DNA of 64,000 nt from contig CANQRR010000009.1 in NCBI GenBank assembly GCA_947626285.1, positions 23,484 through 87,483 of the forward strand, written 5' to 3'. This DNA comes from an uncultured Lachnospiraceae bacterium (GTDB lineage Bacteria; Bacillota; Clostridia; Lachnospirales; Lachnospiraceae). Under the pieces are notes generated by a model. It had not been told where the DNA came from. It worked only from the letters and a program-made list of their open reading frames with translations, and did no database searches. A program made the position numbers and the translations under genes. Positions 26,338 through 29,330 of the stretch are shown here, piece by piece; the stretch's first letter is position 1; each line of letters starts with the position of its first letter.

Positions 26338-26480
26338 ACGCGTTCATCCCTGTCTTTGAATGATGTCAAGTGACATGTCAAGTTTATCGTACTTATCATA
26401 CCCGAATTTCAAAAAAGTGGCAACTTAAAATGATAAAATTATTTTCTCTTATTTAAAGTTGGCAAAAAAATTCATATAAT

Positions 26481-26600
26481 TAACATAATATAATTATGTA
26501 AAATGAAAGCAATATATTTGCACAGATAATTAACATAATTATATTATGTAAATTTAAAGCAACATATTTACGAAATTAATTGACATAATAATATTATGTA
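26481..26600. repeat. Three 20-bp palindromic boxes on an exact 50-bp period in AT-rich intergenic DNA
   Basis: Cores ACATAAT-ATA-ATTATGT (26483-26499), ACATAAT-TAT-ATTATGT (26533-26549), ACATAAT-AAT-ATTATGT (26583-26599). Confidence 0.92.
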
Positions 26601-27765: not shown

Positions 27766-27833
27766 TTTGATTTAATTGTCTGACAGTAAAATGAACTGAT
27801 ACTATGATATTGTCATATATAAAGTTTTAGTTT

Positions 27834-27850
27834 ACATTATTATATTATGT
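27834..27850. repeat. Fourth dif-half-site-like palindrome, one arm mismatch
   Basis: ACATTAT-TAT-ATTATGT between dtd stop and recombinase stop; same family as 26481-26600. Confidence 0.7.
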
Positions 27851-27857
27851 TTATTTT

Positions 27858-28913
27858 TTATCCTTCCCGTAGCCGTACTGCGGAAGCAGCCCGTCTGCGG
27901 CGATCCTCATCCATAGCCGCGTAATGCTTCCTCGTCGTGTTGACGTCCTTGTGCCCGAGCACGTCCGCGACCAGATAGATATCGCCGGTTTCCTTGTAGA
28001 GCGTGGTTCCGTAGGTACTTCGCAGCTTGTGTGGAGTAATCTTCTTGGTGGTCGTGATCTCACGGGCATATTTTTTAACCATATTTTCGACCGCCTGCAC
28101 GCCGATGCGTTTTCGCTGGGTAGAGTAGAAGAGGGCGTTCTCATGGCCGGCGATCGGCGTGATGGATTCCCGGATCTCCAGATAATCCAGAAGCGCTTTT
28201 TCGACTTCCTCACCGAAATAGACGATCATTTCCGAGCCGCCTTTGCGCACGACGCGGATGCCGCCGTTCTTGAAATCAATGTCAGACACATCGAGGCCGA
28301 CACATTCCGATACACGGATTCCAGTGCCCAAAAGCAAGGTGATGATCGCCAGGTCGCGATATTTTGTTTTCTCATAATAGACTTTTTTCTGACCGGTCAG
28401 ATGATCCCCGCAGTGTTCCACATAATCCAGCAATTCCGCGGTTTCGTCCGGGTCGAGCCGTATGATCTCCTTATCGTGGAGCTTCGGCATATCGACCAGA
28501 AGCGTCGGATTTGTCTTAATCAGTTCACGCTTGTAATAATAGGCGTAAAAACTGCGCAGAGCGGACATTTTGCGCTTCAAGCCGCGTTCTCCGTTTGTTA
28601 AAAGTTTGTCATCATTGGAATAGACCTTCAGATATTCCTGATATTCCTCAATATCGACCGCCTGAAGCTTGTCCAGCACATCCACAGTGATATCAGCCGC
28701 AGATTTCCCTTTGAAAGCGGGATTTTCCGTCAGAAGAAACTGGAAAAAGACGCGAATGTCGTATGCATAGGAAATCCGCGTGCGCGTGCTTGTCGTAGGC
28801 TCAATGGCGCGAAAATAATCCTTGGCAAACGGCGGCAAGGACTTAAGCACCTCGCGAAGCTTCAAAACATTGTCGATGTTGACCTGTTCGTGGTAAGTGA
28901 TCGTTTTCTCCAT
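27858..28913 (-). CDS. XerS-like tyrosine recombinase
   Basis: Catalytic motifs GTGIRVSE (R), PHKLRSTYG (HxxR), LGHKDVNTTRKHY (H...Y); 351 aa; from memory, spacing and motifs resemble streptococcal XerS. Confidence 0.88.
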   Translation of the reverse strand: MEKTITYHEQVNIDNVLKLREVLKSLPPFAKDYFRAIEPTTSTRTRISYAYDIRVFFQFLLTENPAFKGKSAADITVDVLDKLQAVDIEEYQEYLKVYSNDDKLLTNGERGLKRKMSALRSFYAYYYKRELIKTNPTLLVDMPKLHDKEIIRLDPDETAELLDYVEHCGDHLTGQKKVYYEKTKYRDLAIITLLLGTGIRVSECVGLDVSDIDFKNGGIRVVRKGGSEMIVYFGEEVEKALLDYLEIRESITPIAGHENALFYSTQRKRIGVQAVENMVKKYAREITTTKKITPHKLRSTYGTTLYKETGDIYLVADVLGHKDVNTTRKHYAAMDEDRRRRAASAVRLREG

Positions 28914-28954
28914 ATATAAAATCCCCTTTGTAAATTATTTTAAATCCAAATCGT

Positions 28955-29240
28955 TTAAAGTCTGATCAAGCGTATGTATTATAGATAAATCCATGCTTTT
29001 CAAGTTCGATGGGCGATTGCATAATAATAGTTGTATTATTTTTTAAAGTCCATGTTTTTCAAATCAGATCAAGCGTACGTATTATAGAATAAATCCATGT
29101 TTTTCAAATTAGATGGGGCGTTTGTATAATGACAGTTGTATTATTTTTTATTAACTTCATGTTTTTCAAATTAGATCAAGCGTCCGCGATAGATGAATGG
29201 GAATTTACTTGAATTCAGCTTGATCTATTTGAAAAACATG
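28955..29240. repeat. Alternating direct-repeat array with a terminal inverted copy, immediately upstream of the recombinase
   Basis: CATG(T/C)TTTTCAA units at 28992, 29051, 29096, 29158; alternating GATCAAGCG (28964, 29067, 29174) and GATGGG (29008, 29112); inverted copy GCTTGATCTATTTGAAAAACATG 29218-29240. Confidence 0.9.
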
Positions 29241-29330
29241 TGTTTGTCGTATAGATGTATTATGGAAATACCATATCATCTTCTTCCAAAAATGTCAAGT
29301 TATATTGTAAGCACCAATGAAAACATCATT

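Follow-up and report, generated by a model that had tools for sequence, protein, structure and literature searches.

Facing XerD-type half-sites at the replication terminus of a Lachnospiraceae bacterium and their possible role in SMC unloading

Introduction

XerD-dependent sites at which SMC is unloaded at the terminus were reportedly described by Karaboja et al. in 2021 for Bacillus subtilis and Staphylococcus aureus. In PMC8357415, PMC12322038 and PMC10945525, the B. subtilis XerD is presented as a protein that unloads SMC at the terminus. Besides this role, Xer proteins are known from dif, whose right half-site is highly conserved and of which RipX can bind both halves (PMC5357621). Published searches take dif as a site present once per genome (PMC3025954). 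The XerS/difSL and XerH/difH modules are also characterized by single-copy, near-palindromic sites that are linked to the recombinase gene and located at the terminus (PMC5357621, PMC2731167).

The locus described here belongs to an uncultured Lachnospiraceae bacterium and was analysed as a window of 64 kb, which is the whole stretch of DNA under study. It combines several XerD-type palindromes, a recombinase gene and a separate dif-like element.

Palindromic Sites of the Window

Perfect ACATAAT-N3-ATTATGT palindromes are present at 26483, 26533 and 26583, with a period of exactly 50 bp, and the three 50-bp units were aligned by the repeat finder with 100, 82 and 60% identity. The sequence and the repeat finder thus agree with the earlier note, which had reported three palindromes on this period; the partial repetition that it saw in their flanks is also real. 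All three of its sites stand, but it missed a fourth one at 27829-27855, whose core (27834-27850) carries one mismatch. The sites and the neighbouring recombinase gene are the following:

26478..26504, no strand: site 1, XerD-arm palindrome AATTAACATAA-TATAA-TTATGTAAAAT, 31.2 bits
26528..26554, no strand: site 2, XerD-arm palindrome AATTAACATAA-TTATA-TTATGTAAATT, 32.8 bits
26578..26604, no strand: site 3, XerD-arm palindrome AATTGACATAA-TAATA-TTATGTATACC, 27.5 bits
27829..27855, no strand: site 4, weaker XerD-arm palindrome AGTTTACATTATTATATTATGTTTATT between the convergent dtd and recombinase genes, 22.6 bits
27858..28913, minus strand: XerS-like tyrosine recombinase of 351 aa, best curated match XerS

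The scoring matrix was trained on other species only. Besides these four sites, its scan of the 64-kb window gave none of 12 bits or more, and locally shuffled windows give 0.15 each. The exact core ACATAATNNNATTATGT was searched in the entire 3.73-Mb assembly and occurs at just three places, all of them in the array, which argues against a chance origin of the palindromes. A strong palindrome lies at about the place of site 4 in several relatives. A phage origin of the array was considered and dropped, since there were zero matches among 50,697 phage records.

The full motif of the genus is AGTTTACATAA-N5-TTATGTAAACT, in which the two arms of 11 bp each are conserved and the 5-bp centre is free; the sites of the relatives are longer and cleaner than the copies of the window. 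The right arm, TTATGTAAACT, corresponds to the XerD half-site of dif in B. subtilis. Because the arms match this half-site, the palindrome is, as far as sequence can tell, a pair of Firmicute XerD half-sites placed face to face. Every strong site of the genus has two XerD-type arms and a centre of 5 bp, so that the motif upholds what had been noted on the arms and centre of the window copies. Within a single array the centres differ between copies.

Terminus Location and Variation in the Genus

Gene polarity and GC skew switch at about 28 kb in the window, at the recombinase. Of 22 loci of the genus, all 22 have positive skew to one side of this gene and 21 have negative skew to the other, and the recombinase at 27858-28913 can therefore be taken as a marker of the replication terminus for the whole genus. 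The setting beside a Xer-type recombinase was correctly recognized from the beginning, and GC skew identifies the place as the terminus.

The palindromes are concentrated in this region. Across 25 congeneric genomes, the zones up to 20 kb from the recombinase, which make up 1.2% of the sequence scanned, contain all 14 exact cores (P about 1e-27) and 13 of the 31 cores with one mismatch (P about 1e-17). Strong sites of the genus are located outside ORFs in 28 of 32 cases, versus about 12% of positions, and 15 of the 32 are found between convergent genes. The genomes compared are mostly draft assemblies.

Position and number are variable among species. The palindromes are found from -7.5 to +7.8 kb from the recombinase; four are present here and up to four within 8 kb in relatives. 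The array itself has three copies in the window and two in G009 (same place, other centres), and the entire spacer is absent in G005. The alignment across genomes proposed in the earlier note thus confirmed that copy number varies, but no junctions were seen inside the palindrome centres. In four genomes (G006, G007, G010 and G024) XerD is encoded, but strong sites are missing up to about 8 kb from the recombinase.

The XerS-Like Recombinase and Its Candidate dif

The recombinase scored 214.3 bits against the curated XerS model and did not pass its cut-off of 267, for which reason it is called XerS-like. All the catalytic residues are kept in an alignment with E. coli XerD (1A0P), and the protein probably carries out chromosome dimer resolution, to judge from its sequence. 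Two further features accompany its gene:

29225..29254, plus strand: candidate dif of the XerS-like recombinase, 30 bp, CTATTTGAAAAACATGTGTTTGTCGTATAG, upstream of the recombinase gene
28936..29186, plus strand: left half of the dif-like element, repeated in four partial and inverted copies, CATGTTTTTCAAATTAGATC type

The 30-bp element is nearly invariant and near-palindromic. Exactly one match was found in each of 33 of the 40 genus genomes and none, at up to 3 mismatches, in the remaining 7; the element adjoins the recombinase gene in those genomes in which this gene was mapped. The left-half copies lie between the element and the start of the gene. Extra copies of this kind are also present in G005, G022 and G014, and most relatives are devoid of them. 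The palindrome was also considered as the dif of the single adjacent recombinase, an interpretation that was dropped since the near-invariant 30-bp element lies upstream of that gene.

Loss of Catalytic Residues in XerD

An orthodox XerD is encoded elsewhere in the genome (contig C95:965-1825; 357 bits, cut-off 329.6), and XerD matches were obtained in 36 of the 40 genus genomes. No XerC equivalog over the cut-off was found among 56 genomes of the order. In every XerD ortholog of the genus the catalytic Lys of the β-hairpin is gone, as judged by alignment with E. coli XerD; for instance, GKGNKER has changed to CRDADKER and the like. A paralog of G047 that keeps the Lys is only 31% identical and was used as a control. 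This Lys has a catalytic role in tyrosine recombinases, from which we infer that its loss would abolish recombination.

Further residues are affected in parts of the genus. Gln replaces the first His in one XerD subclade, and the XerD of G001, G008, G013 and G014 has lost the C-terminus with the catalytic Tyr; these four genomes nonetheless have a palindrome near the recombinase. Pairwise dN/dS values from 0.06 to 0.20 indicate that XerD is kept by purifying selection. Asp or Glu is present at the position of the Lys in 24 further palindrome-bearing genomes of the Lachnospiraceae type that were examined. The XerD of Psychrobacillus keeps the Lys, and the site there adjoins a different recombinase.

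Outside Lachnospirales, the palindrome-bearing Neobacillus drentensis (L263) and Anaerosalibacter (L286) appear to have a XerD without the catalytic Lys. In G056 (locus L260), a member of the same family, there is a XerD relative of 298 aa with several catalytic positions changed (KGFRYY), and the XerS-like recombinase was not found at E 1e-60.

These data bear on the possibility that the palindromes form a symmetric recombination array, dif or dif-like, used by the adjacent XerS-like recombinase or by XerD. The arms do resemble dif half-sites, the position is that of the terminus, a Xer-type recombinase adjoins them and symmetric arms would suit a single recombinase. However, the XerS-like protein has another dif-like element with unrelated arms, present once per genome and linked to its gene, whereas the palindromes occur several times per genome with unlike centres, at which rearrangement was not seen. 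XerD, for its part, has lost catalytic residues in species where the palindromes persist. We therefore consider a recombination array unlikely, and the proposal of the earlier note that the recombinase at 27858-28913 acts on one is, for the same reasons, not supported.

Distribution in Firmicutes

The pattern GTTTACATAA-N(3-9)-TTATGTAAAC was scanned in 85,488 species genomes and gave at least 71 sites with spacer 5, at least 47 with spacer 6 and at least 8 others. Among the matches listed, the spacing is sharply two-valued, 5 or 6, those with spacer 5 belonging mostly to Lachnospiraceae and those with spacer 6 including Paenibacillus, Streptococcus, Lactococcus and Gemella.

A recombinase gene within reach of the palindrome can be of the XerS-like type, a true XerS, as in Streptococcus (L120), Paenibacillus (L191) and Neobacillus (L203), or of a third type present in Tissierellia and others. 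That one site accompanies three kinds of recombinase points to a common ligand, for which XerD is the obvious candidate. The third type, seen at L107, L121, L128, L156, L171, L185, L213 and L214, is a terminus-type tyrosine recombinase of about 325-340 aa, below the curated XerC, XerD and XerS cut-offs where scanned, and a palindrome with spacer 5 or 6 lies no farther than about 1 kb from its genes. Five exact palindromes in 400 bp were observed in a Tissierellia MAG (L197, 1066-1465), four of them having spacer 6 and the other spacer 5, an array denser than that of the window.

Of 32 genomes with the palindrome, mostly Lachnospiraceae, 31 have XerD, versus 22 in a sample of 55 from the order (P 4e-8, a statistic that ignores shared ancestry). 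For palindromes with two mismatches, co-occurrence with XerD across the order is near background level. In 8-kb pieces, spacer-5 sites coincide with a terminus-like skew switch in 18 cases and with an origin-like one in 1; random positions taken from those pieces lean towards terminus-like switches as well (306 versus 73), for which reason the skew count supports the general location only.

The sites could also mark the terminus for a protein other than XerD or the XerS-like recombinase, such as an unknown organiser analogous to MatP or RTP. Their terminus-restricted, multi-copy, palindromic and intergenic character would be in keeping with such a function; however, their arms coincide with the XerD half-site and their occurrence follows that of XerD, which makes a different protein improbable. 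No further candidate protein emerged from the comparisons made here.

The palindromes might also be operators for a dimeric regulator that acts on the genes around them (TtcA-like, GNAT acetyltransferase, recombinase), and the three-copy array of the window does separate divergent genes, close to promoter-like matches. Against this, there are no exact copies elsewhere in the genome, the distance to the recombinase is not fixed, almost half of the strong genus sites separate convergent genes, and only 2 of the 71 spacer-5 sites among the matches listed are located between divergent ones. The operator array, which was the other suggestion of the earlier note, is thus very unlikely, having neither copies throughout the genome nor a fixed position at any gene.

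At spacer-5 sites, about 6 bp of flank beyond the arms are self-complementary without being conserved (z 4.5 to 7.4, positions 1-6, n=70); this extension reaches 15 bp in single cases and is hardly seen at spacer-6 sites (L102-L221). This complementarity and the enrichment between convergent genes might suggest that the palindromes work as hairpins of nucleic acid, either bidirectional terminators or cruciforms, rather than as protein sites. Such a reading is most improbable, because conservation of the arm sequence itself extends from Lachnospiraceae to Paenibacillus and Streptococcus, T-runs are missing after most stems, no terminators were found at the window palindromes and the sites of the window have no complementary extension.

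A Possible Role in SMC Unloading

Our favoured reading, to which we assign a probability of roughly 0.6, is that a non-recombining XerD binds the palindromes, probably in order to unload SMC at the terminus. A conserved XerD without its Lys, several sites at the terminus and a separate module for dimer resolution agree better with this role than with recombination or the control of transcription. After loading near the origin, SMC would travel to the terminus, as is known in B. subtilis; XerD would sit on the palindromes as a pair, and SMC arriving from the origin would be released at the palindromes so occupied. The XerS-like recombinase, judging by the anatomy of the locus, would resolve dimers at the 30-bp element (29225-29254). 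Dimer resolution would have passed in this lineage to the XerS-like recombinase, XerD being kept as a DNA-binding protein.

A stronger form of this proposal, for which we see even odds, is that the XerD of Lachnospirales is catalytically dead and now dedicated to the terminus, its sole task being the unloading of SMC at symmetric double-arm sites, while a single XerS-like recombinase with a dif of its own has taken over the dimers. Two functions that are joined in the B. subtilis XerD would then be naturally separated here, which has possibly been repeated in other XerS-bearing Firmicutes. If this is true, nature has carried out a separation of function in which a XerD without Lys, and even without Tyr, is retained together with the terminus sites, meaning that a non-recombining role suffices to retain the protein. 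It would also explain the retention of xerD in bacteria with XerS-type dimer resolution and mean that SMC-unloading sites at the terminus have a sequence signature across Firmicutes. In addition, a candidate dif is supplied for a Lachnospiraceae genus.

Comparison with Known Systems

The enterobacterial MatP/matS system shares with the palindromes a multi-copy, palindromic and terminus-restricted site, and MatP excludes the SMC complex MukBEF. However, protein and sequence are unrelated, and matS sites span a far larger region.

With streptococcal and lactococcal XerS/difSL, the locus has in common a single recombinase with a gene-linked 30-bp element (29225-29254) at the terminus. It differs in that the recombinase is below the XerS cut-off, the sequence of the element is another one and the palindromes lie outside that module.

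The canonical 28-bp dif of B. subtilis and E. coli is likewise AT-rich, intergenic and located at the terminus, and it contains the same XerD half-site, TTATGTAAACT. In the palindromes, by contrast, the XerC arm is absent, the centre has 5 bp versus 6 bp, several copies exist and XerD is catalytically degraded. A canonical dif was also looked for elsewhere in the genome: five exact TTATGTWAACT half-sites were found, none of which faces a XerC-like arm on inspection.

The SMC-unloading sites of B. subtilis and S. aureus differ from the present ones in that here XerD has lost catalytic residues, no XerC equivalog was found and a separate XerS-like module exists. The arms are symmetric and double here and the centre measures 5 bp. 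As in these two species, several XerD-type sites are clustered at the terminus of a genome that encodes XerD, and a role independent of dimer resolution is plausible.
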